Source of the DNA: Kaustia mangrovi
GTDB lineage: Bacteria > Pseudomonadota > Alphaproteobacteria > Rhizobiales > Im1
Assembly: GCF_015482775.1 (NCBI RefSeq)
Contig: NZ_CP058214.1
Span: 310,001-374,000, forward strand
Length of the DNA: 64,000 nucleotides
Direction of reading: 5' to 3'
A program made the position numbers and the translations under genes. This document shows positions 29,992 through 48,257 of this stretch, piece after piece; position 1 is the stretch's first letter, and the number at the start of each line of letters is the position of its first letter. The notes under the pieces are model-generated. The model was not told the origin of the DNA. It was given only the letters and a program-made list of their open reading frames with translations, and did not search any database.

Positions 29992-30005
29992 TATCGCTGC
30001 CAGGT

Positions 30006-30036
30006 GTCGCCCGCATATGTAAACTGTGCGGGCGAC
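30006..30036 (+). promoter_or_regulatory. intercistronic hairpin after the ABC binding-protein gene
   Basis: Perfect ten-base arms GTCGCCCGCA (30006-30015) and TGCGGGCGAC (30027-30036) with an 11-base loop, 14 bases after the binding-protein stop and before the permease ribosome site. Same placement as the hairpin after the TRAP binding-protein gene; probably sets a higher level of receptor than permease. Confidence 0.6.
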
Positions 30037-30065
30037 CCCGCATCTCTCGAAACGGGGGAGGGGCC

Positions 30066-31025: not shown

Positions 31026-31891
31026 CCGCTCCCGAAACCCCGACCGCCCGCCGTCTTCGCCTGCCGTTCCGCGGCGACAGGGCCTATGCCTTCAACTGGA
31101 TCGGCCGCATCGGCTTGTGCATCATCCTGTTCTGGGCGGTGATCGCCGTCATAGGCCAGTGGATCGCCCCGTATCCCGTCGGCAAGATCGTCGGATGGGA
31201 CTATTTCGCCCCGGTGAGCCGTGAATTCTGGATGGGAACGGACTATCTCGGCCGGGACATCTTCTCCCGCGTCCTGATGGGCGCGCGCTATACGGTCGGA
31301 ATCGCGCTGGCTGCGGTCACGCTGGCGGTGACCGCCGGCGTGATCCTGGGCATGATCGCCGCCGTGGCGGGCGGCTGGTTCGACATGCTCCTGTCGCGTT
31401 TCCTGGACGCGTTCAACGGCATACCGTCGCTGCTCTTCGGGCTTGTCGTCGTGGCCGCCGTGGGCTCGTCGATCCCGGTTCTGGTGCTGACGCTGGCGGC
31501 GATCTACATGCCGGGCGCGTACCGCTTCGCACGGGCCCTGGCGGTCAATGTCAACGCGATGGATTTCGTTACCGTGGCGCGGGCACGCGGCGAGCGCACC
31601 TCCTATCTGATCGCGTGCGAGATCCTTCCCAATATCCTCGGCCCCGTCCTGGCCGATCTGGGGCTGCGCTTCGTCTTCATCGTGCTGGTGCTCTCCGGGC
31701 TGTCCTTCCTGGGGCTCGGCGTCCAGCCGCCCCATGCCGACTGGGGCGCCCTGGTGCGCGAGAACATCGAGGGGCTCAGCCTCGGCGCGCCGGCGGTGAT
31801 ATTCCCGTCGATCGCCATCGCGTCGCTGACCATCTCGGTCAACATGTTCATCGACAACCTGCCCACCAAGATCCGCGACAGGAGCGATTAG
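31022..31891 (+). CDS. ABC transporter permease, DppC type
   Basis: A 289-residue partner permease. The N-terminal helix is IGLCIILFWAVIAVIGQWIAPY, then FWMGTDYLGRDIFSRVLMGARYTVGIAL, a hallmark of DppC proteins. The EAA loop is VTVARARGERTSYLIACEILPN. The start is TTG 31022, embedded in the upstream stop (TTGA), and its stop touches the ATG of the ATPase gene, so the three genes are translationally coupled. Confidence 0.92.
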   Translation: MTAPETPTARRLRLPFRGDRAYAFNWIGRIGLCIILFWAVIAVIGQWIAPYPVGKIVGWDYFAPVSREFWMGTDYLGRDIFSRVLMGARYTVGIALAAVTLAVTAGVILGMIAAVAGGWFDMLLSRFLDAFNGIPSLLFGLVVVAAVGSSIPVLVLTLAAIYMPGAYRFARALAVNVNAMDFVTVARARGERTSYLIACEILPNILGPVLADLGLRFVFIVLVLSGLSFLGLGVQPPHADWGALVRENIEGLSLGAPAVIFPSIAIASLTISVNMFIDNLPTKIRDRSD

Positions 31892-33560: not shown

Positions 33561-34055
33561 TCAGTCGTCTCCCGTGAACAGCCGGGTCAGCGGTAGCTGC
33601 GTCTTGGCGAAGGGGGTCTTCATCACGACGAAGCTGAAATAGCGGTCGATCCCGATGTCGCGGTCGATCAGCGCCTCGATGATCGTCTGGTAGTCGACGA
33701 TGCCGGCGGTGACGAACTTGGCGAGATAGTCGTAGCCGCCGGAAACCAGATGGCATTCGACGCAGCTGTCGATCTTTTCCAGTGCTTCCTGAAAACGGGC
33801 GAAATCGATCTGGCGATGGTTCTTGAGCGTGAATTCGGTAAACACGGTCAGTGTCTCGCCGAGCTTGGCCACGTCGATCTGTGCCGAATATCCGATGATG
33901 TAGCCGGCCTGCTGGAGCTTCTTGACCCGCATCAGGCACGGCGAGGGCGACAGATGCACGAGCTCGGCCAGTTCCACGTTGGTGATCCGGCCGTTGCGCT
34001 GCAATTCGGCAAGGATCCTGACGTCGATCCGGTCGAGTTTCATGCGGTTGTTCAT
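33561..34055 (-). CDS. Lrp/AsnC-family transcriptional regulator
   Basis: A 164-residue regulator with N-terminal HTH (MKLDRIDVRILAELQRNGRI; ELAELVHLSPSPCLMRVKKL) and a RAM ligand domain (VTAGIVDYQTIIEALIDRD). ATG 34055 starts at the HTH; an upstream in-frame extension is unnecessary. It is divergent from the oxidase at 34217 with a 161-base gap and convergent with the importer, so it probably senses an amino-acid-like ligand and controls the surrounding catabolic genes. Confidence 0.9.
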   Translation of the reverse strand: MNNRMKLDRIDVRILAELQRNGRITNVELAELVHLSPSPCLMRVKKLQQAGYIIGYSAQIDVAKLGETLTVFTEFTLKNHRQIDFARFQEALEKIDSCVECHLVSGGYDYLAKFVTAGIVDYQTIIEALIDRDIGIDRYFSFVVMKTPFAKTQLPLTRLFTGDD

Positions 34056-34216
34056 CGGTTCGTCCCTTCGATCCGGCGAAGTGTACCCCTTATGCGACAG
34101 GGCGACCGGACTGCCAAGCCGGCACTGTTCGACATGAAATGCCGTCTTTCGCCCGTCGTGCGGAAGATGTGTCCGGTGCGGGCCGGATAGAGTTGCCCAA
34201 ACCATCGGAGACCGCC

Positions 34217-35542
34217 ATGCCCGCGCCCCTCATGCCCATCGAGACCGCCGCCCGCATTCCCGCCGAGGCGGACTGCGTCGTCATCGGCGCCGGTATCGTC
34301 GGCGTCAGCGCCGCCTACTGGCTGGCGCGGGCCGGGCAGCGGGTCGTGCTTCTGGAAAAGGGGCGGGTCGGCGCCGAGCAGTCCAGCCGCAATTGGGGCT
34401 GGTGCCGCCAGCAGAACCGGGATGCGCGGGAACTGCCGCTCGCCACACGCAGCCTCGCTCTGTGGGAGGAGATGACCGCCGATATCGGCGAGGATCTGGG
34501 CTTTCGCCGGTGCGGGCTGCTCTATCTCTCCGACGACGAGGCCGAGATCGAGGGGTGGGCGGACTGGGGCCGTTTCGCGCGCGGCGAGGGGGTCGATACG
34601 CGCATGATCGGCCCGGCGGAGGCCGCCGAGCGCGGCGCGGCCACCGGGAAGGGCTGGAAGGGCGGCGTCTGGTCGCCCAGCGACGGCACCGCCGATCCCT
34701 CCCGTGCCGCGCCGCTGATCGCCAGGGGCGTCATGCGCCATGGCGGCATCGTCGTGCAGTCTTGCGCAGCGCGCGGCATCGAAACCTCCGCCGGCGCCGT
34801 CTCGGGTGTCGTCACGGAGGCGGGTACCATCCGCACGCGCAACGCGGTGCTTGCGGGCGGGGCCTGGGCGGCGAGCTTCCTGCATCAGCTCGGGATCGGG
34901 TTCCCCCAGGCCTCGGTGCGCAGTTCCATCCTGTCGGTCGCGCCGGGGGCCGACGGTCTGCCCGCCGCCCTGCACACGGCCGGTGTCTCGGTGACAAGGC
35001 GCGGCGATGGCGGCCATACATTGGCGATCTCGGGATATGCCAGTCTCGATCCGACCCAGGGGGCGCTGAGCGGCGCCCGGCATTTCCTTCCCATGTTCGC
35101 CAAGCGCTGGCGGTCGCTGAGGCCGGGCGGGCTGCAGGCCTGGCGCGCCGGCTTCGAAACCCGCCATATCTGGGCGTTGGACCGCGAAACCCCTATGGAG
35201 CGCACGCGCATCCTCGACCCGCGCCCTTCCGCGTGGCTGGTGGACAAGACCCTGTCCCGCGCCCGCCGCCTCCTGCCTGCGCTGAAGCCGTTGCCGGTAC
35301 AGGCGCAGTGGGCCGGCTATATCGACAGCACGCCCGACGGAGTGCCGGTGATCGATACCGATATCGGCCTGCCCGGCCTGACGCTGGCGGCGGGCCTGTC
35401 GGGCCATGGCTTCGGCATCGGACCGGGGGTGGGCCATCTCGTCGCCGATCTGATCCTCGGGCGCGAACCGATCACCGCGACCGCACAATACCGCCTCGAC
35501 CGGTTCTCCGGTCGCCAGTGGGGCAAGGTGGCGGAGTTCTAG
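34217..35542 (+). CDS. DAO-family FAD-dependent oxidoreductase (HcnC/OoxB-like subunit candidate 1)
   Basis: A 441-residue flavoprotein: ADCVVIGAGIVGVSAAYWLA (FAD site, about residues 17-36), the SSRNWGWCRQQNRD loop, and the C-terminal flavin signature GLTLAAGLSGHGFGIGPGVGHLV. Such proteins oxidise sarcosine, D-amino acids, opines or hydroxyproline, alone or with ferredoxin-like and HcnB-like partners; both partner genes lie downstream at 41.8-43.5 kb. ATG 34217 follows CGGAGA; an in-frame ATG at 34139 is less likely. Its stop is interlocked with that of the next, convergent gene. Confidence 0.88.
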   Translation: MPAPLMPIETAARIPAEADCVVIGAGIVGVSAAYWLARAGQRVVLLEKGRVGAEQSSRNWGWCRQQNRDARELPLATRSLALWEEMTADIGEDLGFRRCGLLYLSDDEAEIEGWADWGRFARGEGVDTRMIGPAEAAERGAATGKGWKGGVWSPSDGTADPSRAAPLIARGVMRHGGIVVQSCAARGIETSAGAVSGVVTEAGTIRTRNAVLAGGAWAASFLHQLGIGFPQASVRSSILSVAPGADGLPAALHTAGVSVTRRGDGGHTLAISGYASLDPTQGALSGARHFLPMFAKRWRSLRPGGLQAWRAGFETRHIWALDRETPMERTRILDPRPSAWLVDKTLSRARRLLPALKPLPVQAQWAGYIDSTPDGVPVIDTDIGLPGLTLAAGLSGHGFGIGPGVGHLVADLILGREPITATAQYRLDRFSGRQWGKVAEF

Positions 35543-36651
35543 TCGCATGCCGCGAAGCGTCCGATGGAGAAGGGCGCGATCGGGGTCTCGCAGGCGCCGG
35601 TGGCGATCAGTTCCGCCATCGCGTCGCCCACGCCGGGGCCGAGCTGGAATCCGTGACCGCAGAAGCCGAAGGCATGGAACAGTCCCGGAACCGTTCCGGA
35701 CAGTCCCATCACCGGTAACCCGTCGCGCACATATCCCTCGCAGCCCGACCATTGCCGGATCACGGCCACCTCCCGCAAGGCCGGCACCAGCCGCACCACG
35801 GCGCGAAGCTGCTCGGGCAACCGGGCCGGATCGGCCCGGGCATGGCCCGGATCGGGGTCGACCGGCACCCGCGCGACCGCGCCGCCGAACACCACATTGC
35901 CCCGCTCGACCTGCCGCAGATAGGCGCCGTGATCGCGCGACCAGACGCCGACCACCGGCGCGATACGATGGGGCAGGGGCTCGGTCACGGCCATTTGCGG
36001 GCCGTGGGCGGTGAGCGGCACCGGCTCGCCGAATTGCGCCGCGATCTCCGCACCCCATGCCCCGGCACAGTTGAGAAGCATCGACGCCTCGCGGCGGCCG
36101 CGCGCGGTATCGACCGCGAAACCGTACGTCGTGCGGGCGATCCCGGTCACCGTTGCCCGGTCCAGGATCTCCGCGCCGGACGCCGCCGCTGCCGCCGCGA
36201 AGGCGGGGCCGACAAGCCGGGGATTGGCCGATCCGTCCCGGGGGGAAAAGGAGGCGGCGATGGCCTCGGGGCCGAGGCCCGGGAAGCGTCGGCGGATCTG
36301 GGCGGGCGCCAACTCGTCGAGCGCGAGCCCCAGAGGAGTCGCTTCCTCGGCAAAGCGCCGCATGTCCGCCAGACCGTCCGTGTCGAAGATCAGCCGCAGA
36401 TGCCCGCTCGCGCGGAACTCCACGTCGCGGCCCAGAAGAGTCTCGGCCCGGGCCCAGAGCGCAAGCGACCGGTTCGCCAGGGGCAGCTGTGACAGGTGGC
36501 GCCCGCTGCGCCGGATATTCCCGAACGAGGCGACAGTGGCGCCGGCACCGATATGCCGTCGCTCGACCAGCGTCACTCTCAGGCCGCGCCGGGCCAGGAA
36601 GAAGGCCGAGGCCGCTCCCATCAATCCGCCACCCAGGACGATCACATCCAT
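35539..36651 (-). CDS. DAO-family FAD-dependent oxidoreductase (candidate 2)
   Basis: A 370-residue flavoprotein with the N-terminal FAD site MDVIVLGGGLMGAASAFFLARRG, GSANPRLVGPAFAAAAAASGAEI in the middle and the C-terminal LFHAFGFCGHGFQLGPGVGDAMA. It is shorter than the convergent enzyme at 34217-35542 and not a close copy, so the two probably take different substrates or stereoisomers. Divergent from the LysR regulator at 36752 across 100 bases. Confidence 0.88.
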   Translation of the reverse strand: MDVIVLGGGLMGAASAFFLARRGLRVTLVERRHIGAGATVASFGNIRRSGRHLSQLPLANRSLALWARAETLLGRDVEFRASGHLRLIFDTDGLADMRRFAEEATPLGLALDELAPAQIRRRFPGLGPEAIAASFSPRDGSANPRLVGPAFAAAAAASGAEILDRATVTGIARTTYGFAVDTARGRREASMLLNCAGAWGAEIAAQFGEPVPLTAHGPQMAVTEPLPHRIAPVVGVWSRDHGAYLRQVERGNVVFGGAVARVPVDPDPGHARADPARLPEQLRAVVRLVPALREVAVIRQWSGCEGYVRDGLPVMGLSGTVPGLFHAFGFCGHGFQLGPGVGDAMAELIATGACETPIAPFSIGRFAACD

Positions 36652-36733
36652 TCCGCCGCCCCTCCCATATCCGGCATTTCCCCATCACAACGCCGCGACG
36701 GGTTTGCGTCAAAGACGGGAAACGAGGCACAAT

Positions 36734-36748
36734 ATAAGTCAACCCTAT
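36734..36748. promoter_or_regulatory. LysR-type site, copy 1 (at LysR's own start)
   Basis: ATAAG-TCAAC-CCTAT contains the T-N11-A pattern of LysR boxes and nearly matches ATAAG-CTTGT-CTTAT found ahead of hyuA at 37639-37653. It lies just before the LysR start codon in the divergent gap, suiting autoregulation and control of the leftward oxidase. Confidence 0.5.
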
Positions 36749-36751
36749 GGA

Positions 36752-37642
36752 ATGGACATGCGCGCACGTCAGCTCGAAGTCTTCACCGCCGTCATGCGGG
36801 CCGGGACCGTCACCGGTGCCGCCCGGCTGCTCAACATCTCGCAGCCCGCATTGAGCCAGATCCTGATGCATGCCGAGGACGAGCTGGGCTTTGCCCTGTT
36901 CGACCGGAAGAGGGGGCGCCTGCACCCGACGCCGGAGGCCTTGGAGCTCTATCCGGAGGCAGAGCGGCTCTTCGGCGGACTGGAGGGCTTGCGCCGCAAG
37001 ACCGCGGATCTGCGGCTGGGGCGGGCGGGGCTGGTGCGGATCGCGGCCTCGCCGCCGCCGGCCATGGCACTTCTGCCGCAGGCATTGGCCGCGTTCCGGG
37101 CCCACCATCCGGATGTCCTGCTGAGGACGCATGTGGCGCCGATTGCCGCGATGGTGGACATGCTGCGCGCGGGCGACGTCGCACTGGCGCTGGCGCTCGA
37201 CGACGCCCTGCCGCCCGATATCGAGGTCGAGCGGATCGGTCGGACCTCCTTTTGCTGCCTCCTGCCTGCGGGGCATTCGCTGGCCCAGGCCGACGTGCTG
37301 ACCTTCGCGGATCTCGCGGAAGAAACCGTGATCTCCTATCGCACCATGACCCGCCCTCACGATGAGCTGGACGCCGCCGCAAGGGTGCGGAAGGTACGGT
37401 TCGTGCCGCAGATCGAGATCGACTCCTCGATTGCGGCAGCCGGCCTCGTGCAGGCCGGGCTGGGTGTCGCCGTGGTGGACGCGTTGCTGCCCTGGACGCA
37501 GTTTCCGGGTCTGCATGTGCGTCTGCTGGAGAACGCTCCCGCACTGCCCCTGTCGCTGCTGACCCTGCGCGGCAGGTTGTTCTCGCGCGCGGAGGAGGCC
37601 ATCCGGTCGCAATTGCGGGCAGTCGAGATCAGCAGGGCATAA
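36752..37642 (+). CDS. LysR-family regulator of the HyuAB cluster
   Basis: A 296-residue regulator. The HTH is RQLEVFTAVMRAGTVTGAARLLNISQPALSQIL, and the ligand domain runs GLVRIAASPPPAMALLPQAL to the C-terminus. MRARQLEVF... with SQPALSQ resembles LysR proteins near amino-acid and opine catabolic genes. Start ATG 36752 or 36758 (M-D-M). The gene sits between a divergent oxidase and the rightward hyuA operon, with a candidate binding site on each side, so it probably controls both. Confidence 0.9.
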   Translation: MDMRARQLEVFTAVMRAGTVTGAARLLNISQPALSQILMHAEDELGFALFDRKRGRLHPTPEALELYPEAERLFGGLEGLRRKTADLRLGRAGLVRIAASPPPAMALLPQALAAFRAHHPDVLLRTHVAPIAAMVDMLRAGDVALALALDDALPPDIEVERIGRTSFCCLLPAGHSLAQADVLTFADLAEETVISYRTMTRPHDELDAAARVRKVRFVPQIEIDSSIAAAGLVQAGLGVAVVDALLPWTQFPGLHVRLLENAPALPLSLLTLRGRLFSRAEEAIRSQLRAVEISRA

Positions 37643-37655
37643 GCTTGTCTTATGC
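37637..37655. promoter_or_regulatory. LysR-type site, copy 2 (hyuA promoter)
   Basis: A perfect inverted repeat GCATAAG-CTTGT-CTTATGC beginning in the last codons of the LysR gene and ending 81 bases before the hyuA ATG. It includes T-N11-A and matches the site at 36734-36748 in nine of ten arm positions of ATAAG-N5-CTTAT. Probably the activation site for the hyuAB operon. Confidence 0.58.
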
Positions 37656-37736
37656 ACCATGCTCCGATGCGTCTTGGACGCGGTCGGCGGTTTCTGGTCG
37701 TTTTCTCGGAAACAGACCGGAAAGGGACAATCCCAC

Positions 37737-39791
37737 ATGGATGGCAGCGCGCGGCCTGCAGACTGGAAGATCGGTGTCGATATCGGCGGCACCTTCATGG
37801 ATTTCTGTGCGCTGGAGACGCGCTCGGGCCGGATCGCCTCGCTGAAGGTGCTGACCTCGCCCGACGATCCCGGCGCCGAGCTGTTGACCGGGCTCGACCT
37901 TCTTGCCGAACGCGAGGGGCTGGAGGCCGAACACGTCACCCGCTTCGTGCACGGGACCACGGTGGGGATCAACACCATCCTCCAGCGCAAGGGCGCCAGA
38001 CTGGCAATGATCACCAATGCCGGGTTCGAGGATGTGATCGAGCTTGCCCGGCTGCGCATGCCCGACATGTACTCGCTGTTCTGCCACCGCCCGGAGCCGC
38101 TGATCGCGCGCGACCTCATATTCGGCATTCCGGCCCGCCTGCGCGCCGATGGCAGCGAAAGCCTGCCGCCCGATCCGGACGCGGTGTCCGAGGCCATCGC
38201 GAACGCCCAGAAAAAGGGGGCCGACGGTATCGTCGTCGCGCTCCTGCACAGTTGGCGCGACGGCCGCCAGGAGGCTGCCGTGAAGGCCATGATCGAGGCC
38301 GAAGCGCCGGATCTGTTCGTCTTCGCCTCGTCGGAGGTCTGGCCGGTGATCCGCGAATATGAGCGCACCTCGACGGCGATCCTCAACGGCTATGTGTATC
38401 CGCGCGTCTCCGGCTACCTGACGGCGCTGGAGACCCGGCTGAAGGACCGCCATGTGCCGGCGCGGGCGATGCTGACGAAGTCCAATGGCGGGCTGATGAG
38501 CGCGGGTGAGGGGCGGCGCAACTGCGTGTCGATGCTCCTGTCGGGTTCCGCGTCTGGCGTCATCGGCGCCTCCTGGCTCGCCCGGCAGGCCGGCGAGACG
38601 CGGGTGCTGACGCTGGATATCGGTGGGACTTCTGCGGATTTCGCGCTGATCGTCGACGGTGCGGTGCAGTTCGGCAGCGACGAGATGATCGGAGAGTTTC
38701 CGCTGCATATTCCCTCCGTCTCGGTCAGCTCCATCGGCATTGGCGGCGGTTCGGTCGCCACCGCGGACAGCCAGGGCGTATTGCGGGTCGGGCCGGAATC
38801 GGCAGGCTCCTCGCCCGGCCCGGCCTGCTACGGACGAGGTGGCGAGCGGGCCACGGTGACCGATGCAATGGCGGTTTGCGGCTGGCTCGGCCATGCCGAG
38901 ATGGCCTATGGCCAGCTTCCGATCGATCTGGATCTGGCCCGCCGGGCGGTCGCGGAGCTGGCCGGCAGCCTCGGGCGCGGGGTCGAGGAGACGGCGCAGG
39001 CCATTCTCGACATCGCAATCTCGGAAATGTTCGTCGAGGTGGAGAAACTGTCCTCGCGTGCCGGCGTCGATCTGCGCGACTTCGCACTCATGCCCTTTGG
39101 CGGGGGCGGACCGATGCTCGGCGCATTCCTCGCCCGGGAACTGGGCATGCGGCGCGTGATCGCGCCGCGCCGGCCGGGCGTCGTTTCGGCGCTTGGCGGT
39201 CTGGTGGCCGATCTGCGGGGCGATTTCATCAAGACAATCTATGCCGATCTCGACGCCGCCGCGCCGGACCGCCTGGATGCGGCCTTTCGCGAGCTCACCG
39301 CCGACGGGCACGACTGGCTGGCCGCGCAGGGCCATGACGGCGCCGCCGATCTCCGCCTGTCCGCCGATATGCGCTATTGCGGGCAGAGCTACGAGATCGA
39401 GGTCGCGCTGGAGCCCGACTGGCTCGCCGATCCGGAGCGCACCGCCGCGGCCTTTCACGAGACGCACCGGCAGATCTACGATTTCGACGACCCGGAGGGC
39501 CGGATCGAGATCGTCAACTTGCGCCTTTCCGCCATCGGCGCGGGGCCGAAACCGGTCTTTCCCGAAAGCGATCGTGTCGACGCAAGCCCCGCACTGGCCT
39601 TGCGCCACGTTCCGGTCCATCTGCACGGGACCCGCGAGGTGGCGCTGTTCGACCGCGCCGCGCTCACGGCCGGCGCGGAGTTCGCAGGTCCCGCCATCGT
39701 GGTGCAGGAAGACACCACCTTCGCCGTCCCCGACGGGGCGCGGGCCCGGGTGGACCGGCACCTCAACATTCATCTCAGCCTTGCGGAGTGA
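37737..39791 (+). CDS. hyuA: hydantoinase/oxoprolinase A subunit
   Basis: ATP-dependent ring-opening amidohydrolase subunit (HyuA; same superfamily as N-methylhydantoinase, 5-oxoprolinase and acetone carboxylase). The 684-residue protein starts near IGVDIGGTFMDF (the ATP-binding DIGGT phosphate loop), followed by RFVHGTTVGINTILQRKG, a second actin-like loop (LTLDIGGTSADFALI) and the GGGGPMLGAFLAREL segment. ATG 37737 is chosen because the domain starts 16 residues later. Forms a complex with HyuB, encoded six bases downstream. Substrate unproven: a hydantoin, lactam or oxoproline. Confidence 0.92.
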   Translation: MDGSARPADWKIGVDIGGTFMDFCALETRSGRIASLKVLTSPDDPGAELLTGLDLLAEREGLEAEHVTRFVHGTTVGINTILQRKGARLAMITNAGFEDVIELARLRMPDMYSLFCHRPEPLIARDLIFGIPARLRADGSESLPPDPDAVSEAIANAQKKGADGIVVALLHSWRDGRQEAAVKAMIEAEAPDLFVFASSEVWPVIREYERTSTAILNGYVYPRVSGYLTALETRLKDRHVPARAMLTKSNGGLMSAGEGRRNCVSMLLSGSASGVIGASWLARQAGETRVLTLDIGGTSADFALIVDGAVQFGSDEMIGEFPLHIPSVSVSSIGIGGGSVATADSQGVLRVGPESAGSSPGPACYGRGGERATVTDAMAVCGWLGHAEMAYGQLPIDLDLARRAVAELAGSLGRGVEETAQAILDIAISEMFVEVEKLSSRAGVDLRDFALMPFGGGGPMLGAFLARELGMRRVIAPRRPGVVSALGGLVADLRGDFIKTIYADLDAAAPDRLDAAFRELTADGHDWLAAQGHDGAADLRLSADMRYCGQSYEIEVALEPDWLADPERTAAAFHETHRQIYDFDDPEGRIEIVNLRLSAIGAGPKPVFPESDRVDASPALALRHVPVHLHGTREVALFDRAALTAGAEFAGPAIVVQEDTTFAVPDGARARVDRHLNIHLSLAE

Positions 39792-39796
39792 GCCCG

Positions 39797-41782
39797 ATGT
39801 ATGACCGGATGACCCTTCAGGTGCTCGCCAACCACGCGCGCGCCGCGGCCGAGAACATGGCTCACACATTGCACCGCACGGCCCATTCGGCCTTCGTCAA
39901 GGAGACGCAGGACTTCACCGTCATGCTGATGGACCGTGCGGGCGATACCTTCGCGGTGCCGATGGAGCTCGGCGCGACGTGGTATCCCGGCCTGAGCTAT
40001 GCCCGTGCCATCGCCATGGTCGACGATTACCGCCCCGGCGACGTGGCCTTCACCAACGATCCCTATTCGGGCCATGTCGCGACCCACGCGCCCGATACCC
40101 ATCTGTGGAAGCCCGTCTTCGCCGAGGGCGAGATCGTTGCCTGGACCGGCGGGCACATCCACAATACCGACATGGGCGGCGCGGTGCCGGCCTCGCTGTC
40201 TCGCTCGCTGACGGAGGTGCACCAGGAGGGTTTGCGCTTTCCGCCGATGAAGCTGGTCCGCGAAGGCACCTTCGACGCCCAGATCTTGCGGATCATGGAA
40301 ACCAATGTGCGCAAGCCCGCGCTGAATATCGGCGACATCAAGGCGCTGGTCGGCGCGCTGAACACCGGCGAGCGCAAGGTTCACGCGATGATCGAACGGT
40401 TCGGCAGGCAGGGCTTCCTGACCGGGGTCGCCGCGCTGATGGACCAGGCCGAGGCGCAGGCGCGCGAGATCCTGCGCGGCATACCCGATGGCGACTACGT
40501 CTTTGCCGATTATGCCGACGAGGACAGCGATATCGGCAATCCCTGCCGCCTGAAGCTCACCCTGTCCGTCCGGGACGATAGCGCGGTGCTGGATTTCACC
40601 GGCTCCGACCCGCAGCTCGCCAGCTCGCTGAACGTGCCGTCGGGCGGCGATCCGCGGCACACCATATTGCTCGTCGGCGTCTATTACGTGCTCTACACGC
40701 TGAACCCGCGGATCCTGCTGAATACCGGCCTGACGCGCCCCTTCACCTGCATCGCGCCGGAGGGCACGGTGCTGAACCCGGTCGAGCCGGCGGCGGTGGG
40801 GATGCGGTCCTTGACCTGCGCGCGGCTGCGCTCGGTGATCTTCGGGGCGTTCAGCCAGGCAATCCCCGAGCGCATGCCCGCGGCGCCGGCGGGCAACAAC
40901 TGTATCGTCAACGTCATGACCCATGACGAACGCAGCCGCCGGGCGGTGATCGCGGCGGTCAACCCGGTGGTGGGCGGCGGTGGCGGCATGCCGCATCGCG
41001 ACGGCACCAACGGGTCGGGCGCGGATGCGGCCTATCTGAAGAACACCCCCATCGAGATCACCGAGACCGAGGTGCCGGTGGAGTTCGTCAAATACGGGCT
41101 GGCGCGGGATTCCGGCGGGCCCGGGCGCTGGCGCGGCGGGCTGGCGACCGAGATGGCGTTTCGCGTCTTCGCCCCCGACACGCGGATCACGGCGCGCAAT
41201 CGCGATCGTTCGGTGTTTCGCCCCTGGGGCGTTCTGGGCGGGCGTGCGGCCGGGTTGTCCGACATGGTCGTCAATCCGGGAACCAGCGACGAGCGGCGGC
41301 TCGGCAATACCGACACGGCGGTGCTGCAGCCCGGCGACGTTCTGGAGATCCGGTCCGCCGGCGGCGGCGGCCGGGGCGATCCGATGGCGCGCGAGCCCTG
41401 GCGGGTGGCGCAGGATGTCGCGCGCGGCCATGTCTCGGAAACCGCCGCGAGGGAGGAATATGGCGTGGTCCTGACCGGGGGAACGGTGGACGAGGCCGCG
41501 ACCACGGCTCTGCGCGCACAGGCGCGGCCACATATCGGCCATTTCCATTTCGGGCCCGAGCGCGAGCGCTTCGAAGCGCAATGGACCGCGGCGGCCTATG
41601 ACCGGCTCACCGATATCCTGTCGGCCCTGCCGATCCACTGGCGCTTCTTCACCAAGACCGAGATTTTCCGCCGCATGGAGGGGCGGTCCGGGGCCGAGGG
41701 GGTCGAGGCCGCCTTCGCCGAAACCCGCGCCCGGTTTCCCCAGATGCCGTCTTCGCCGCGGGTTGCGGAGGCTGCGGAATGA
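39797..41782 (+). CDS. hyuB: hydantoinase/oxoprolinase B subunit
   Basis: The partner subunit, 661 residues. Family features: RTAHSAFVKETQDFTVMLMDRAGDTFA near the N-terminus, DVAFTNDPYSGHVATHAPDTHLWKPVF, HIHNTDMGGAVP and GGGGMPHRDGTNGSGADAAYLKNTPIE. The last ~100 residues, after the glycine-rich GDVLEIRSAGGGGRGDP, extend beyond the shorter HyuB forms. Translation of the next gene is coupled by an ATGA overlap. HyuA and HyuB act together in the cytoplasm. Confidence 0.92.
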   Translation: MYDRMTLQVLANHARAAAENMAHTLHRTAHSAFVKETQDFTVMLMDRAGDTFAVPMELGATWYPGLSYARAIAMVDDYRPGDVAFTNDPYSGHVATHAPDTHLWKPVFAEGEIVAWTGGHIHNTDMGGAVPASLSRSLTEVHQEGLRFPPMKLVREGTFDAQILRIMETNVRKPALNIGDIKALVGALNTGERKVHAMIERFGRQGFLTGVAALMDQAEAQAREILRGIPDGDYVFADYADEDSDIGNPCRLKLTLSVRDDSAVLDFTGSDPQLASSLNVPSGGDPRHTILLVGVYYVLYTLNPRILLNTGLTRPFTCIAPEGTVLNPVEPAAVGMRSLTCARLRSVIFGAFSQAIPERMPAAPAGNNCIVNVMTHDERSRRAVIAAVNPVVGGGGGMPHRDGTNGSGADAAYLKNTPIEITETEVPVEFVKYGLARDSGGPGRWRGGLATEMAFRVFAPDTRITARNRDRSVFRPWGVLGGRAAGLSDMVVNPGTSDERRLGNTDTAVLQPGDVLEIRSAGGGGRGDPMAREPWRVAQDVARGHVSETAAREEYGVVLTGGTVDEAATTALRAQARPHIGHFHFGPERERFEAQWTAAAYDRLTDILSALPIHWRFFTKTEIFRRMEGRSGAEGVEAAFAETRARFPQMPSSPRVAEAAE

Positions 41783-42102
41783 GCGCGGCACCGGGGCGGG
41801 GACGGTTGCTGAGGCTTGCCGAGATCGACCGCGCGCACCTGACCTTCCAGTTCGACGGAACCGAGATGGAGGCTCTCGATGGCGACACGGTGCTCACCGG
41901 GATCCTGATGTCGGCCGGCAGCCTGCGTTCGGCCGAGTTCGGGCCGGAGTGCCGCGCCGGATTCTGCCTGATGGGCACCTGTCAGGATTGCTGGATCTGG
42001 CAGGAGGATGGCCCCCGTCTTCGTGCCTGCTCAACGCCGCTGCGGAACGGGATGCGGCTCCTGTCCCGCCCGGCTGTGGATTGGCCGGACAGGCGGCCAT
42101 GA
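41779..42102 (+). CDS. [2Fe-2S] ferredoxin-like small subunit (HcnA/OoxA-like)
   Basis: A 107-residue protein with a plant-type ferredoxin cluster motif: Cys63-x4-Cys68-x2-Cys71-x12-Cys84 (an additional Cys58 precedes it). Proteins like this form the small subunit of heterotrimeric FAD dehydrogenases such as hydrogen cyanide synthase, octopine/nopaline oxidase and D-hydroxyproline dehydrogenase. It overlaps hyuB and the next flavoprotein gene by four bases each, so equal expression is expected. Confidence 0.9.
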   Translation: MSAAPGRGRLLRLAEIDRAHLTFQFDGTEMEALDGDTVLTGILMSAGSLRSAEFGPECRAGFCLMGTCQDCWIWQEDGPRLRACSTPLRNGMRLLSRPAVDWPDRRP

Positions 42103-43469
42103 CCCGGGTGCTGATCGTCGGCGCGGGGCCCGCTGGCATGCGCGCGGCCGAGACGCTGTCGAATGCGGGGCTGGTCCCGGTCGTCGTGGACGAGGCCGCC
42201 AGGGCCGGCGGCCAGATCTATCGCCGCCCGCCGGAAGGCTTCACCCGCCCGGGCGAGAAACTCTACGGGTCGGAAGCCGGCAAGGCGGCGGCGCTGCATC
42301 GCATGTTCGACGCGCTGGTCCGGGCGGGCAGGGTCGACTATCGCCCGCACAGCTCCGTCATCGGCTTTTCCGGCAACGAGGCATTGCTGCTCGGTGCGGA
42401 GGGGACGACCGCGATTGCCCATGACCTCCTGATCCTGGCCACCGGGGCGACCGACCGCCTGGCACCGGTGCCGGGCTGGCAGCAGGCCGGCGTCTACAGC
42501 CTCGGCGCGGCGCAGGTCGCGCTCAAGTCGCAAGGCGTGGCGCTGGGGCGGAAGATCGTGCTGGCAGGATCCGGACCGCTTCTGACGCTGGTCGCCCGTC
42601 AGCTCCGCAAGGCGGGGGCAGGGCTTGCCGGCGTGCTGGACACCGCCCCGCTGGCGGCGCAGGCGGCCGGCGGGATGCGCATGGCCGCGGCCCGCCCGCT
42701 GGTCACGGCGCGCGGGGTTGCCATGCGTGCCGGGCTCGGGCGGCTTTACCGCGCTGGGGTGACGCTTCAGAGCATCGCCGCGGGCGCCGATGGCCCGAAC
42801 GCCGTGCATTGGCGCGACGCCTGGGGACGTCCCCGGACCACCCCCTGCGATACGGTGGCGCTCGGTTGGCATCTGCAGGCCGAAACCGCGCTGGCCGATC
42901 TTGCCGGCGTCCCCTTCGACTGGTCGGCGACCTGGGAGCAATGGTTGCCCCGGACCGACGATGCTGGCCGCGCGGGCAGGGGGATTTATCTCGCCGGCGA
43001 CGGCCTGCGCCTGCTCGGTGCCGACGGCGCGGAGATCGCCGGGCGGCTGGCGGCCCGCGCCTGCCTGGCCGATCTGGGCCACGACATCCCGGCCGGGGAC
43101 GAGGCGAGCGACCGCCGCCGCATGGCGCGAATGCGGCGTTTCGCCGACGGTGTCGCGCGGGCCTTTCCCTGGCCCGCCCAAATGGTTGCCAAGCTGCCCG
43201 ACGACGCTGTGATCTGCCGCTGCGAAGGCATAACCGCCGGCGAGCTGCGCGCCACGTTGCCCCTGTCCGGGCCCGAGGCGAACCGCGTCAAATCCCTGGG
43301 CCGGGTGGGCATGGGGCGCTGCCAGGGGCGCTACTGCCAGCGTGCCGGAGCGGAGCTGATCGCGGCCGGGGCGGGAACGACGCCGGAGGCGGCGGGACGG
43401 CTGCGCATGCAGCCCCCGGTGCGCCCGGCGCCAATCGCTGCACTGTGCCGGATGGTCCGCGAGGACTGA
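42099..43469 (+). CDS. NAD(P)/FAD-dependent oxidoreductase with BFD-type [2Fe-2S] domain (HcnB/OoxA-like)
   Basis: A 456-residue middle subunit. The N-terminal FAD site is VLIVGAGPAGMRAAETLSNAG, followed by GGQIYRRPPEGF and HDLLILATGATDR. The C-terminal domain has the iron-sulfur motif ICRCEGITAGEL with GRCQGRYCQ (Cys-x-Cys and Cys-x4-Cys). With the ferredoxin-like subunit it completes the electron-transfer half of an HcnABC-type dehydrogenase; one of the DAO proteins at 34-36.7 kb probably supplies the catalytic subunit. Confidence 0.9.
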   Translation: MTRVLIVGAGPAGMRAAETLSNAGLVPVVVDEAARAGGQIYRRPPEGFTRPGEKLYGSEAGKAAALHRMFDALVRAGRVDYRPHSSVIGFSGNEALLLGAEGTTAIAHDLLILATGATDRLAPVPGWQQAGVYSLGAAQVALKSQGVALGRKIVLAGSGPLLTLVARQLRKAGAGLAGVLDTAPLAAQAAGGMRMAAARPLVTARGVAMRAGLGRLYRAGVTLQSIAAGADGPNAVHWRDAWGRPRTTPCDTVALGWHLQAETALADLAGVPFDWSATWEQWLPRTDDAGRAGRGIYLAGDGLRLLGADGAEIAGRLAARACLADLGHDIPAGDEASDRRRMARMRRFADGVARAFPWPAQMVAKLPDDAVICRCEGITAGELRATLPLSGPEANRVKSLGRVGMGRCQGRYCQRAGAELIAAGAGTTPEAAGRLRMQPPVRPAPIAALCRMVRED

Positions 43470-43596
43470 TCCCCCGCGAAATCTTCTGCCCCGGTTCCGC
43501 CTCGCGAAAGCGGATTATGCTGCCCGGCCGGCGCTTTCGGCAGCCGGTACCGGCCGCGCCGCGCGAAGCTGACGGCAAGACCACGAAGAGGTTTCC

Positions 43597-45060
43597 ATGA
43601 CACTTGCCTTCGACCCGTCCCGGCTGACGCTTCCGTCCGGCCACTATATTGGCGGCCGCTATGTGGAGGGGCCGGAGGAGATCGCGGTCGTCGCACCGTC
43701 GAACGGGCTGACGCTGGCCGCCATTCCGCGCGCCGATGCCGCGATGGTGGATCGTGCGGTCGCGACCGCCCGCGCCGCGCTCGACAGTTCGGGCTGGGGC
43801 GGGACGGCCCCGCGCGACAGGCTGCGCGCGCTCCACCGCTGGGCCGATCTGATCGAGGCCGAGGCCGGGACGCTGGCGCGGCTCGAGGCGGTCTGCTCGC
43901 CCCGTCCCGTGGCGCAAGCCGCCGCCGGCGACGTGATGGTGACTGCCGAACAGATCCGCTTCTTCGCCGAATTCGCCGACAAGGAGAGCGGCGATCTGGT
44001 TCCCACCTCGGACCGCCAGCTCGGCCTGATCTCGTCGGAACCCTATGGCGTGGTCGGTGCCATTACGCCCTGGAACTTTCCGATCTCGATGGCTGGCTGG
44101 AAGCTCGCCCCGGCGCTCGCAGCCGGCAATGCGGTGGTGCTCAAGCCCTCCGAGATGACGCCCTATTCGACGCTCTATCTGGCCGAGCTCGCGGTGAAGG
44201 CGGGGATTCCCGAGGGGCTCGTCAATATCGTTCTCGGCGACGGCCCGGTGACCGGCACGGCGCTGACCGGTCATCCAGGGATCGACAAGGTGTCCTTCAC
44301 CGGCTCCACCCGCGCGGGCGGTCAGATCATGGAGAACATCGCGCGCGCCGGCATCCGGCCGATGACGCTGGAGCTGGGCGGCAAGAGCCCGATGGTGGTC
44401 TTCGCCGACGCCGATCTGGAGCTGGCCGCCGACTGCCTCGACCGGGGGATCACGCCGAATGCCGGACAGTTCTGCGTGGCGGGCTCGCGCATCGTCGTCG
44501 CCCGCGACATCGCGGAAGAGCTTGCCGCCATGCTGATCGAGCGGTTCGCCCGCCACGTGCCCGCCGCCACCTGGGAGGAGGTGCCCGGCTTCTCCCCGAT
44601 CATTTCCGAACCCCAGCTCGGCCGGATCGACGGCATCGTCGGCGCCGCGGTCGCGCAGGGCGGCGAGATCCTTTGCGGCGGCGACCGGTTCGACCGCGAG
44701 GGCAGCTTCTACCGCCCGACCCTGATCGGCGGGGTCGACGCGGCGAACCCGGCGGTCACGGAGGAGATATTCGGCCCGGTCGCCACCTTCCAGACCTTCG
44801 AAACGGAAGATGAGGCAATGGCGCTCGCCAGCCATCCGACCTACGGCCTGTGTGCCGGGCTGTTCACCCGCGACCTGAACCGCGCCCTGCGGCTGTCGCG
44901 CCGGATCGAGGCCGGAACGGTCTGGATCAACCGCTACGGGCGCTCGCACGATCATATCCTGCCCACCGGCGGCTGGAAGGCCAGCGGGCTGGGCAAGGAT
45001 CTGGGGCGCGAAGCCTATCTCGCCAACCGCCGGACGAAATCGGTGTTGGTCGACCTTTAA
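43597..45060 (+). CDS. NAD(P)-dependent aldehyde dehydrogenase
   Basis: A 487-residue ALDH: GAITPWNFPISMAGWKLAPALAAG, the SFTGSTRAG cofactor loop, catalytic Glu in LELGGKSPMVV and catalytic Cys in NAGQFCVAGSR. The C-terminal WINRYGRSHDHILPTGGWKASG resembles semialdehyde and betaine-aldehyde dehydrogenases. It follows the flavoprotein gene by 127 bases and probably oxidises an aldehyde or semialdehyde made by the upstream oxidases. Confidence 0.92.
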   Translation: MTLAFDPSRLTLPSGHYIGGRYVEGPEEIAVVAPSNGLTLAAIPRADAAMVDRAVATARAALDSSGWGGTAPRDRLRALHRWADLIEAEAGTLARLEAVCSPRPVAQAAAGDVMVTAEQIRFFAEFADKESGDLVPTSDRQLGLISSEPYGVVGAITPWNFPISMAGWKLAPALAAGNAVVLKPSEMTPYSTLYLAELAVKAGIPEGLVNIVLGDGPVTGTALTGHPGIDKVSFTGSTRAGGQIMENIARAGIRPMTLELGGKSPMVVFADADLELAADCLDRGITPNAGQFCVAGSRIVVARDIAEELAAMLIERFARHVPAATWEEVPGFSPIISEPQLGRIDGIVGAAVAQGGEILCGGDRFDREGSFYRPTLIGGVDAANPAVTEEIFGPVATFQTFETEDEAMALASHPTYGLCAGLFTRDLNRALRLSRRIEAGTVWINRYGRSHDHILPTGGWKASGLGKDLGREAYLANRRTKSVLVDL

Positions 45061-45112
45061 CCGCCGCGCTCGCGGCCTCCCTCCGGCCGCCGGCGAAAGA
45101 GGACAACCGGCA

Positions 45113-47149
45113 ATGTCGTCTGATCCGCTCCTCCAGCCCTTCCAGATCAAGAGCCTGCGGCTGAAGAACCGCATTCTGATCACCGCGCACGAGCCCGGCT
45201 ATGCCGAGGACGGCCTGCCGAAGGACCGCTACCGCGCCTATCACGTCGCGCGGGCCCGGGGCGGGGTGGCGCTGACCATGACCATCGGCTCCGCCGCGGT
45301 GGCACACGACAGCCCGCCATCCTCCGGCGGCGTGCAGGCCTATCGCGACGAGATCGTCGGCTGGATGCGCAAGATCGCCGAGGAATGCCACGAGCACGGA
45401 ACGGCGGTGATGATCCAGCTCACCCATCACGGCCGCCGGACCCGGTGGGACAAGGGGGACTGGCTGCCGACGGTCTCCGCCAGCCGCGAGCGCGAGGTCT
45501 CGCATCGCGGCGTGCCCAAGGCGGCGGAGGACTGGGACATCCGGCGGATCGTGCAGGACTATGCGGATGCGGCTGAGCGGATGAAGGAGGCCGGTCTCGA
45601 CGGCGTCGAGTTCATCGCGACCGGCCATCTTCTGGACCAGTTCTGGTCGCCGCGCTCCAACACGCTGGACGGCCCGTATGGCGGCTCCCTGGACAATCGC
45701 CTCCGCCTGACCTTCGATGTGCTTTCCGAGGCAAGGAAACGGGTCGGCGAGGACTTCCTTCTGGGCGTCCGCTATGCCGGGGACGAGAACGCGGCCGACG
45801 GCGTCGATATCCAGGAAGGGCTGGAGATCTCGCGGCGCCTCAAGGACAGCGGGCTGGTGGATTTCCTCAACGTCACGCGCGGCCATATCGACGACGACGC
45901 CGGGTTGACCGACATGATCCCGGTTCAGGGCATGCGGGGCGCCCCGCATCTCGAGCTCGCGGGCGAAATCCGCGCGGCCACCCGATTTCCCGTGTTCCAC
46001 GCCGCCAAGATCCCGGATCTCGCCACGGCCCGCTATGCCATTGCGGAGGGCAAGCTGGACATGGTGGGCATGACACGGGCCCATCTCGCCGACCCCGACA
46101 TCGTCCGCAAGATCGCCGCGAGGCAGGAGGATCGCATCCGTCCCTGCGTCGGCGCCAATTACTGTCTCGACCGCCGGTTCCAGGGGGCGGATGCGCTGTG
46201 CATCCACAATCCCTCGACGGGACGCGAGACCGTCATGCCCCATGAGATCGCGCCGGCCGCAACGCCGCGTCGGGTGACGATCGTCGGAGCCGGGCCTGCG
46301 GGCATGGAGGCCGCGCGTGTGGCGGCCGAGCGCGGGCACGAGGTGATCGTTCACGAGGCCGCCAACGATCCGGGCGGGCAGATCCGCCTGACCGTGCAGT
46401 CCGACCGCCGCCGCGAGATGGTCTCGATCATCGAATGGCGGATGGCGGAATGCCTGCAGCGCGGCGTGACCTTCCGGTTCAACAGCTTTGCCGAGGCCGA
46501 CACGGTCACCGCGGACAATCCCGACGTGGTGATCGTCGCCACTGGCGGCCTGCCGCACGAGGTTCCGCTGGCGCAGGGGCGCGACCTGGCGGTGACCGCC
46601 TGGGACATTCTCTCAGGCGACGCGCAGCCGGGCCGCTCGGTGCTGGTTTTCGACAATGCGGGCGACCATGCCGGCCTTCAGGCGGCGGAAATGATCGCGG
46701 CGACCGGCGCCCGGGTCGAGATCGTGACCCCCGACCGCAGCTTCGCGCCGGAGGTCATGGCAATGAACCTCACCCCCTATATGCGCAGCCTGCAGGCGCT
46801 CGACACGCGCTTCACCGTGACCTGGCGGCTCAGGCGCGTGACCCGAAAGGGCAACGGGCTGCTGGCCGAGCTTGGCAGCGACTACGGCGAGATGACCCGC
46901 CTGCGGGAGGTGGATCAGGTGGTCGTCAACAACGGGACGGTCCCGCTCGACGATCTCTATTTCGATCTCAAGCCGCTTTCGTCGAATCTGGGCGAGGTGG
47001 ACAACACAGCGCTTCGGACCTCCGCCCGGCAGACCATCGCGACGAACCCGGATGGCCGCTTCCAGCTCTTCCGGATCGGCGATGCCGTGTCCTCGCGAAA
47101 CACCCACGCCGCGATCTACGACGCCCTGCGCCTGACACGGGTTCTGTGA
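45113..47149 (+). CDS. StcD-like FMN/FAD/[4Fe-4S] oxidoreductase (probable N-demethylase)
   Basis: A 678-residue protein of the trimethylamine-dehydrogenase/2,4-dienoyl-CoA-reductase architecture. It has an N-terminal Old-Yellow-Enzyme barrel (LQPFQIKSLRLKNRI, MIQLTHHGRRTRWDKGDWLP, LDGPYGGSLDNRLR), an iron-sulfur segment (IRPCVGANYCLDRRFQ...ALC) and FAD/NAD domains (VTIVGAGPAGMEAARVAAERG). Sequence and length recall StcD, the N-methylproline demethylase of stachydrine catabolism, more than dienoyl-CoA reductases. It probably removes an N-methyl group from a cyclic or secondary amine. Last gene of the hyuA operon. Confidence 0.88.
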   Translation: MSSDPLLQPFQIKSLRLKNRILITAHEPGYAEDGLPKDRYRAYHVARARGGVALTMTIGSAAVAHDSPPSSGGVQAYRDEIVGWMRKIAEECHEHGTAVMIQLTHHGRRTRWDKGDWLPTVSASREREVSHRGVPKAAEDWDIRRIVQDYADAAERMKEAGLDGVEFIATGHLLDQFWSPRSNTLDGPYGGSLDNRLRLTFDVLSEARKRVGEDFLLGVRYAGDENAADGVDIQEGLEISRRLKDSGLVDFLNVTRGHIDDDAGLTDMIPVQGMRGAPHLELAGEIRAATRFPVFHAAKIPDLATARYAIAEGKLDMVGMTRAHLADPDIVRKIAARQEDRIRPCVGANYCLDRRFQGADALCIHNPSTGRETVMPHEIAPAATPRRVTIVGAGPAGMEAARVAAERGHEVIVHEAANDPGGQIRLTVQSDRRREMVSIIEWRMAECLQRGVTFRFNSFAEADTVTADNPDVVIVATGGLPHEVPLAQGRDLAVTAWDILSGDAQPGRSVLVFDNAGDHAGLQAAEMIAATGARVEIVTPDRSFAPEVMAMNLTPYMRSLQALDTRFTVTWRLRRVTRKGNGLLAELGSDYGEMTRLREVDQVVVNNGTVPLDDLYFDLKPLSSNLGEVDNTALRTSARQTIATNPDGRFQLFRIGDAVSSRNTHAAIYDALRLTRVL

Positions 47150-47164: not shown

Positions 47165-47793
47165 CTATCGCGCCGGCGAGAGTGCGGCCGAGATTTGCTC
47201 CACGATGGCGCCGACGCTCTCGGTTGCCAGTCTTTCGGCGGCCTCCACAGCCTCCGGTCCCCGGCTCAGGCCCTCCATATGGACGGCCATGACCCGGTGA
47301 ATCCCCATCGTCCGGAATACGTGGCGGACATAGGGTGTCAGGAAATCCGGTTGGGCGGAGTCGCCGAGCCTTCCCCGCACGCCACGATCAGGACAACGGG
47401 ACGGTCCGCGATCAGGCCGGCCTTGCCTTGCGGGGTCAGGGCAAATGTGCGACCGGGCCGGACGACCATATCGATCCAGGCCTTGAATGCCGCGGGCACG
47501 GTGAAATTGTGCATCGGCATGTCGATCACGACCGCGTCGGCGGCCTCCAGCTCGCAGATGAGCTCTTCCGACGGTTCGAGGTTTCGGCGGTGCTCGTCGT
47601 TGCGTGTGTCGTCCCGGCGCAGGCTGGCGTCGACGAAATCGGCATCCGGCAGGGGCGGGGGCGTCGTCGTCAGATCGCGGCGCGTGGACCCGGCGTGCGT
47701 CTGCGATTTCAGCCTGTCCACCAGCATGCCGCCCATCTTGCGGCTGCAGGACCCCGAAACGCGCGGGCTCGCGCTGATATGAAGGATGTTCAT
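47165..47793 (-). pseudogene. azoR: FMN-dependent NADH:azo/quinone reductase (AzoR family), one frameshift
   Basis: A flavodoxin-fold reductase. The N-terminus MNILHISASPRVSGSCSRKMGG and AADAVVIDMPMHNFTVPAAFKAWIDMVVRPGRTF are diagnostic of AzoR. After VVLIVACGG the frame breaks; one extra base at plus-strand CCCC 47373-47376 restores GDSAQPDFLTPYVRHVFRTMGI and a normal 209-residue protein. As written, translation ends at 47338. It overlaps the upstream GNAT gene by four bases and belongs to the MarR-controlled leftward operon. Confidence 0.87.
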
Positions 47794-48257
47794 CGCCGGT
47801 CGCCCTCCGGAGTGTCCCGAAGAGAAATGGAGAACTTGAGCGCCCGCGCGAGCAATCCTTCGCGGAAATAGAAGCGGTGCCCCAGCGCGTTGGACAGCGG
47901 GGTATCCAGAAGCAGCATCTCCAGCCCGAGCCGCTGCCCCTCGGCCTTCAGGCGGTCCATGAGGATTCGGCCGAGACCGCTGCTTCGTTCCCGCGCATCG
48001 GTCACGAGATCGTCGACATAGAGGTGGGGTCCGAAGATGAGATTCTCCTGCACCCTGAACCCCGCCAGGGCCATCGGACGCCCGCCCTCCCATGCGGCGA
48101 GGAGGCGATAACCCGTCTCCTTCTGCCGTTTCCACCGGTCGACGAACTCCGTCTCGGAGGCGAGATGCGGTCGTAACTGGCGCATGACCGGAAAGCAGCG
48201 TGCGACCTCGTCCTCCGCATCGACAATGCGCACATCGATGTCCGTTCCTGTCGTCAT
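47790..48257 (-). CDS. GNAT-family N-acetyltransferase
   Basis: A 155-residue single-domain GNAT. The acetyl-CoA loop is VTDARERSSGLGRILMDRLKAEG (SxGLG in place of the common GxGxG), followed by LLLDTPLSNALGHRFYFREGLL with the terminal tyrosine-bearing helix. Substrate unknown. Cotranscribed between the CMD-family gene and azoR. Confidence 0.85.
   Translation of the reverse strand: MTTGTDIDVRIVDAEDEVARCFPVMRQLRPHLASETEFVDRWKRQKETGYRLLAAWEGGRPMALAGFRVQENLIFGPHLYVDDLVTDARERSSGLGRILMDRLKAEGQRLGLEMLLLDTPLSNALGHRFYFREGLLARALKFSISLRDTPEGDRR

Follow-up and report, generated by a model that had tools for sequence, protein, structure and literature searches.

We analysed 64,000 nucleotides of the Kaustia mangrovi genome (contig NZ_CP058214.1, positions 310,001 to 374,000; hereafter the window), which carry a catabolic gene block on a 4.63-Mb contig. 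The original prediction, made from the letters of this stretch, had named two DAO oxidases, HyuA and HyuB, a ferredoxin-like protein, an HcnB-like protein, an aldehyde dehydrogenase (ALDH), a StcD-like protein, LysR and Lrp regulators and an importer. In profile searches of the open reading frames (ORFs) of the window, scored against gathering or curated cut-offs, these families were all recovered above their gathering scores, with the exception of Fer2_BFD on the HcnB-like protein (24.4 vs 26 bits). From left to right, the genes are ordered as GNAT acetyltransferase, HAD hydrolase, Opp/Dpp/Nik-type importer, Lrp (minus strand), DAO1 (plus), DAO2 (minus), LysR (plus), HyuA, HyuB, Fer2, HcnB-like protein, ALDH and a protein of the old yellow enzyme (OYE) family.

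The core of the block begins with DAO2 (35539-36651, minus strand; PF01266), an FAD-dependent oxidoreductase and the probable catalytic subunit of a heterotrimer, from which the LysR family regulator (36752-37642, plus; PF00126, PF03466) diverges. On the plus strand follow HyuA (37737-39791; PF01968, PF05378, PF19278), the ATP-binding subunit of the ATP-dependent lactamase/hydantoinase/oxoprolinase type, HyuB (39788-41782; PF02538), the metal-site subunit, Fer2 (41779-42102; Fer2_4, PF13510), a small [2Fe-2S] subunit, and the HcnB/OoxA-like flavoprotein with BFD-type [2Fe-2S] cysteines (42099-43469; PF07992, with PF04324 slightly below its cut-off). We placed the starts of HyuA, HyuB, HcnB, LysR and Lrp by eye from the alignment; with these starts, each of the pairs HyuA/HyuB, HyuB/Fer2 and Fer2/HcnB shares 4 bases. 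ALDH (43597-45060, plus; PF00171) and the OYE family protein (45113-47149, plus) close the block.

To describe the conservation of the block, we scanned a collection of species genomes with HyuA, which gave 163 relatives, and used the best 80 of them (72-85% identity over the best segment) as the locus set. A gene was counted as present when a match of at least 50-60% identity, covering 35% or more of the query, lay anywhere in the locus stretch; the loci were chosen by HyuA, and the stretches end about 10 kb behind it. It turned out that DAO2, HyuA, HyuB, Fer2 and HcnB occur together in 74 of the 80 loci, and this co-occurrence is far beyond chance, although the counts overstate independence because 35 of the 80 loci are Mesorhizobium by title. 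Gene by gene, DAO2 was found in 77 loci, LysR in 77 (matches of at least 50%), HyuB in 79, Fer2 in 76, HcnB in 77, DAO1 in 72 and Lrp in 70, and among the flanking genes the solute-binding protein was found in 52, ALDH in 34, a tartrate-dehydrogenase-type (TDH) gene in 33 and a succinate-semialdehyde dehydrogenase (SSADH) gene in 32. Six loci are without the full core: three are contigs shorter than 8.3 kb (L036, L069 and L078), L018 has no DAO2, the Fer2 of L057 is more distant (45% only), and L076 has lost DAO2, Fer2 and HcnB and kept HyuAB, the importer, Lrp, DAO1, TDH and SSADH.

The block is patchily distributed. Among 4 genomes of its own family only the window genome has a HyuA match at 1e-240, and in a class-level sample 2 of 385 genomes have a HyuA match, one being the window genome and the other reaching 60% identity. 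The nearest Paracoccus loci, however, reach about 92% identity in HyuB. Such a patchy distribution would fit horizontal transfer.

A short element stands in front of HyuA and, on the opposite strand, in front of DAO2. It reads ATAAG-N5-CTTAT, 17 nt, GTCTTNGAC. The copy upstream of HyuA, a putative LysR-type operator with the conserved GTCTTGGAC box, lies at 37639-37679 (plus strand; genome 347639-347679) without mismatch, and the copy with the GTCTTGGAC box facing DAO2 lies at 36708-36748 (minus strand; genome 346708-346748) with 1 mismatch. The motif was read from 18 hand-picked loci, in which the DAO2-LysR and LysR-HyuA gaps were aligned, and was then counted in every usable gap. In 72 of 73 LysR-HyuA gaps, and on the opposite strand in 69 of 72 DAO2-LysR gaps, exactly 17 nt separate the best match of ATAAG-N5-CTTAT from the best match of GTCTTGGAC that follows it, the window being included in both. 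Towards HyuA the first box scores 10/10 in 63 of 73 gaps (maximum 8 in shuffled gaps), and of the 72 gaps towards DAO2, 71 reach a score of 9 or 10 (a score of 9 in one shuffled gap).

Scanning the window turned up no high-scoring sites besides these two; one weak site lies at 56478 (minus strand), and at that weak threshold three shuffled windows gave 0, 2 and 1 matches. The whole window genome contains the two sites (0 and 1 mismatch) and one with 3 mismatches, against 1 match of a control pattern. Across 19 genomes or records chosen for spread, there are exactly two sites each at up to 2 mismatches, and the reversed control pattern gave 3 matches in total. Where DAO2 and HyuA directly face each other, the palindrome is common to both sites in L080, L083 and L085, and the sites stand back to back in Azospirillum and L108. 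Even L076 retains both copies, although its DAO2 is lost. In the window scan, ALDH, OYE, DAO1 and the importer had no such element in front of them. Because the element precedes both DAO2 and HyuA, HyuAB and DAO2/Fer2/HcnB look like one regulon, most simply a local one under LysR with two promoters, one serving DAO2 and the other HyuA-HyuB-Fer2-HcnB with whatever follows. We infer that LysR would bind the element; to call the GTCTTNGAC box a -35 region is a guess. What is new here is this control anatomy, the paired elements.

Left of DAO2 stands a second set of genes with its own regulator. The Opp/Dpp/Nik-type importer (28378-33556, plus strand; PF00496, PF00528 on the second permease, PF00005) consists of a solute-binding protein (28378-29991), two permeases (about 30066-31025 and 31022-31891, starts approximate) and fused ATPases (31892-33556); its first permease is known as an open frame only, in the slot where the cluster of Paracoccus sp. 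MA carries a permease gene. Lrp/AsnC (33561-34055, minus; PF13412, PF01037) diverges from DAO1 (34217-35542, plus; PF01266), a second FAD oxidoreductase whose best solved relative is the L-amino acid deaminase 5fjm. It is rather doubtful, though a reading to be reckoned with, that importer/Lrp/DAO1 and DAO2/LysR/HyuAB/Fer2/HcnB are two unrelated units which happen to adjoin. They have separate regulators, the LysR element covers the second only, and in Azospirillum, Bosea sp. 117 and Ancylobacter the stretch examined contains only the second; in the 17.3 kb read from Azospirillum B510, for example, the DAO2 / HyuA-HyuB-Fer2-HcnB core has neither an ABC importer nor an ALDH annotated with it. 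But Rhodobacterales and Mesorhizobium keep the two sets linked, in two gene orders, DAO1 accompanies Lrp in 70 of the 80 loci, in L076, which has lost the trimer, HyuAB still stands with the importer unit, and the sac region of pTiEU6 likewise has two DAO genes and an importer. We treat importer, Lrp and DAO1 as a linked second unit, which would probably provide uptake and a second oxidation.

An inverted repeat TGCCG...CGGCA at 34055-34217, between Lrp and DAO1, recurs by eye in most of the aligned Rhodobacterales rows and is a candidate Lrp site.

The block encodes DAO, Fer2 and HcnB subunits together; DAO2 is read from the opposite strand, yet it too follows a copy of the shared element. 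The DAO subunits of three contiguous Fer2-HcnB-DAO reference operons share 46-48% identity with DAO2 and 26-31% with DAO1. Given the former identity and the shared element, DAO2 is likely the catalytic subunit of a heterotrimer of the HcnABC/opine-oxidase type. Four cysteines each are conserved in Fer2 and in the HcnB-like protein in 9 of 9 aligned rows, the octopine and nopaline loci included. Among solved structures, DAO2 comes nearest to the two-subunit enzyme 1y56 (chain 1y56_B), as does HcnB, though weakly, and in profile and structure-relative searches DAO2 resembles the sarcosine oxidase beta subunit. Together, DAO2, Fer2 and HcnB probably form a heterotrimeric FAD/Fe-S amine dehydrogenase with DAO2 as the catalytic subunit. 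An HcnABC-type dehydrogenase had been predicted at this locus, and that part of the prediction held. The count of two DAO oxidases held in part: both FAD oxidoreductases are present, but DAO2, with its LysR element and its likeness to trimer subunits, is probably not a free-standing oxidase. DAO1 was also considered as the partner of the trimer and was ruled out by its low identity to the operon subunits and by the lack of a LysR element before it.

The HyuA and HyuB domains are adjacent, as in the ATP-dependent lactamase/hydantoinase family. The metal ligands of the caprolactamase subunit CapB (Asp41, His99, Asp102 and His124), whose alanine mutants are described as inactive (PMC8453981), are aligned with identical residues in 13 of 13 HyuB rows of the window clade. 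HyuAB thus shares sequence family and metal ligands with CapAB, whereas the hydrophobic residues of the caprolactam pocket and its vicinal cysteine pair are replaced in the window clade: Leu38 by Glu, Tyr136 by Leu (Ile in one row), Phe468 by Arg, and Cys410-Cys411 by Ala-Ala. Arg468 is common to the window clade and to the noc and sac proteins of Ti plasmids, and in the pocket it weakly suggests a charged substrate. The CapAB equivalogs of NCBIfam were rejected as assignments (431.5 and 251.5 bits vs cut-offs of 1000). HyuAB is probably an ATP- and metal-dependent lactam-opening hydrolase of the oxoprolinase/caprolactamase kind.

In the same alignment, CapB His124 is matched by Gln in the PDB N-methylhydantoinase (row NMH_7hk5).

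By plain sequence search, HyuA and HyuB both have as their best solved relative a protein named N-methylhydantoinase, which brings up a creatinine or N-methylhydantoin route, with HyuAB as N-methylhydantoinase and the trimer as a sarcosine dehydrogenase; the likeness of DAO2 to sarcosine oxidase beta would agree with it. In the midpoint-rooted HyuB tree, however, the window protein belongs to an 18-row group (100/100) with the HyuB proteins of noc, sac and pAMI1, while CapB and the PDB N-methylhydantoinase lie outside, so HyuB does not group with N-methylhydantoinase. Nor was a carbamoylsarcosine amidase or creatinine deiminase found among the scanned ORFs, all of them from the window beyond its first 23 kb. 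We regard this route as highly improbable.

The reading that we favour, and hold to be somewhat better than an even bet, is a two-step module under one LysR regulator, which opens a lactam and then oxidises the resulting amine; the reactions, their order and the class of substrate are proposed from gene content and family membership. In the first step, HyuA and HyuB would open an N-substituted lactam to an N-substituted amino acid in an ATP- and metal-dependent reaction, and the substrate would most likely be charged, such as a cyclised opine-like N-substituted glutamate or 4-aminobutyrate. In the second step, DAO2, Fer2 and HcnB, which are built like octopine and nopaline oxidase, would dehydrogenate the secondary amine; the imine would hydrolyse, and this C-N cleavage would yield an amine or amino acid together with a keto acid or aldehyde. 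In the third step, ALDH, in relatives joined by SSADH and a tartrate-dehydrogenase-type enzyme, would carry the carbonyl half to central metabolism. To name betaine, creatinine or N-methylhydantoin as the substrate would be a guess.

The enzymes at the carbonyl end give a hint at the products. ALDH is nearest to aminobutyraldehyde and betaine-aldehyde models (best NCBIfam PRK13473, 417.9 bits vs a cut-off of 615), and no curated cut-off was reached among the 25 rows listed. In Paracoccus sp. MA, the genes behind ALDH encode a tartrate dehydrogenase (549.6 bits vs a cut-off of 470.4) and an SSADH, which scores 655.0 bits vs 646.35 with the subfamily model and 653.8 vs 828 with the NADP-dependent equivalog. 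As a set, ALDH, TDH and SSADH hint at C4-type products without fixing the substrate; 4-aminobutanal and malate semialdehyde were considered as such products, a line of thought that takes in rideopine-like lactams. Isoputreanine lactam is a further candidate. Rideopine-like lactams have been discussed for Ti plasmids (PMC8554961, PMC10410297).

In the Paracoccus loci L008, L009 and L011, the TDH and SSADH genes stand between ALDH and OYE, where the window has a gap of 52 nt (45061-45112).

The SSADH genes also bear on a route of the N-methylpyrrolidone type, in which HyuAB opens N-methyl-2-pyrrolidone or a similar neutral lactam, the oxidoreductase releases methylamine together with succinate semialdehyde, and SSADH makes succinate. 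N-methylpyrrolidone is reportedly ring-opened to N-methyl-4-aminobutyrate. The nmpABCDEF cluster of Paracoccus sp. ZQW-1, related to that of Alicycliphilus BQ1, is described with an N-methylhydantoin amidohydrolase (nmpA/nmpB), an amino acid oxidase (nmpC) and an SSADH (nmpF), and the first intermediate is given there as 1-methyl-2,5-pyrrolidinedione (PMC12866759). By its description, it shares with the window the logic of HyuAB-type subunits plus an amine oxidase plus SSADH, and SSADH is present in 32 of the 80 relatives of the block. But the window block has no SSADH between ALDH and OYE, the nmp description used here names one oxidase and no Fer2 or HcnB subunits of a trimer, and Arg468 points weakly to a charged substrate. 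This route seems unlikely to us.

The original prediction had placed the last gene of the block in a single pathway for an N-methylated substrate. The OYE family protein encoded there shares 71% and 70% identity with two hpbA-annotated genes, and in the tree it joins the two annotated HpbA proteins and a Sinorhizobium meliloti pSymB protein at 100/100, while E. coli FadH lies far outside on a branch flagged as long. The pSymB replicon is the one that carries stcD (PMC12239276); the tree protein comes from an unannotated record and is not identified as stcD itself. The StcD-like assignment was therefore upheld, and a dienoyl-CoA reductase, tried as the other identity of this protein, was ruled out by the tree. 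The pathway built on it fared worse. In that pathway the StcD-like enzyme demethylates a betaine or an N-methylated cyclic amino acid, and HyuAB and the dehydrogenase act on the same molecule. The gene does begin 52 nt past the end of ALDH, in the same direction, and another OYE family occurs in 18 of the 80 loci. HpbA-clade genes (at least 55% identity), however, occur in 3 of the 80, where a more distant copy would escape beyond the end of the stretches about 10 kb behind HyuA, and the gene has no LysR element of its own. Besides, tblastn of the proline-betaine neighbours of P. pantotrophus against the whole window (E 1e-5) gave no match for the Rieske, ETF (electron transfer flavoprotein), permease, binding-protein, cupin or racemase genes, but only generic ATPase and FAD-motif matches. 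The HpbA/StcD-clade gene is an accessory, late addition to the block, in the same clade as the N-methylproline demethylase but in a different neighbourhood, and the joint N-methyl or betaine pathway is very unlikely.

The second OYE family is 41-47% identical to the window protein; in L018, L041 and L085, which are among its 18 loci, the gene is adjoined by a LysR-like gene (by eye).

Returning to the lactam-opening and amine-oxidising module, its closest counterparts are opine systems. The sac region of pTiEU6 has parts of the same kinds as the window block, namely a solute-binding protein, two permeases, a fused ATPase, two DAO proteins, Fer2, HcnB, LysR, HyuA and HyuB. It differs in identity (24-37%) and gene order, adjoins the T-DNA, has an asparaginase gene, and has no ALDH or Lrp annotated in 27 kb. 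Its authors are on record as proposing that HyuAB opens the lactams of succinamopine and succinopine (PMC6733357), and a similar proposal has been made for rideopine (PMC8554961). In noc, the DAO-Fer2-HcnB genes diverge from HyuAB, there are LysR regulators, and HyuB falls in the tree group of the window; unlike the window, it has an importer of another type (NocPTQM) and arginine/ornithine genes, and the identities are 39% for HyuA, 35% for HyuB and 31% for HcnB. The octopine oxidase OoxA/OoxB shares the three-gene architecture and the eight cluster cysteines, but OoxB-DAO2 identity is 27%, OoxA-HcnB 35% and Fer2 37%, and no HyuAB is annotated in 13.3 kb. The pyronopaline paper (PMC4192606) uses neither the word hydantoin nor the word oxoprolinase in its main text. 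Among the open-access papers listed, no title or abstract opening gives an account of this cluster outside Ti plasmids, and a homarine search and two Ruegeria papers gave nothing on it.

Several observations weigh against the two-step module. The sac and noc proteins are only 24-39% identical over full-length matches and their gene order differs, so we speak of the same kind of machine and not of the same system or of orthology. ATAA-N7-TTAT was not found at 7/8 in the noc DAO-HyuA gap or the sac SBP-HyuA gap (SBP, solute-binding protein); one full match lies inside the occR-occQ gap. Towards DAO2 the GTCTTGGAC box by itself is weak (7/9 in 42 of 72 gaps and 8 in 28, with at least 7 in 7 of 72 shuffles), and in this gap it is the constant spacing, rather than the box by itself, that carries the case. 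In HyuB, Arg468 is also present in pAMI1, in MWF001 and in the 51% HyuB paralog of the window genome, position 38 is Glu in the window clade vs Ile in noc and sac, and the joins in the tree depend on branches that the tool flagged as long. The window block contains no TDH or SSADH, and their best relatives elsewhere in the window genome reach 56% each, though these might do the same work. Finally, one locus of the 80, L076, lost the trimer genes and kept HyuAB, the importer, Lrp, DAO1 and both elements, so the trimer can be dispensable.

If the two-step module is true, the combination of HyuAB with an opine-oxidase logic, which in the accounts available has only been proposed for the lactam opines of Ti plasmids, would extend to many free-living bacteria with a compact regulon, and the two-site element would offer a ready reporter for the inducer and hence for the natural compound. 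A wider idea, possible but on balance improbable, is that Alphaproteobacteria of soils and the sea have in common a regulon devoted to opine-like N-substituted amino acids that cyclise naturally, outside the crown-gall setting, with noc and sac as offshoots of the same parts kit. The substrates in that case may be, for instance, N-substituted pyroglutamates or 1-(aminoalkyl)-2-pyrrolidones.

At its left end the block reaches further than was predicted, as the GNAT acetyltransferase (26628-27401, plus strand; PF18014) and the HAD-IA hydrolase (27565-28296, plus; TIGR01493 above cut-off) have relatives, 64% and 78% identical, which adjoin the same cluster on the plasmid of Paracoccus sp. MA. An Agrobacterium plasmid from metal working fluid (L105) carries HyuAB of 51-52% identity together with genes for an OYE, a DAO protein and an ABC importer, and is perhaps a xenobiotic version. 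Outside the conserved block, a third DAO protein is encoded at 24366-25637 (minus strand), with the L-pipecolate oxidase AmaA as its best NCBIfam match (194.8 vs 600 bits). A Flavodoxin_2/FMN-reductase ORF of 153 aa at 47338-47799 (minus) matches 137 of 198 profile positions and looks truncated. Between 54000 and 58300 the GC content falls to 0.54-0.60 around a DUF3644 gene, beside a tRNA-Ser (58204-58293), which is possibly the edge of an island.

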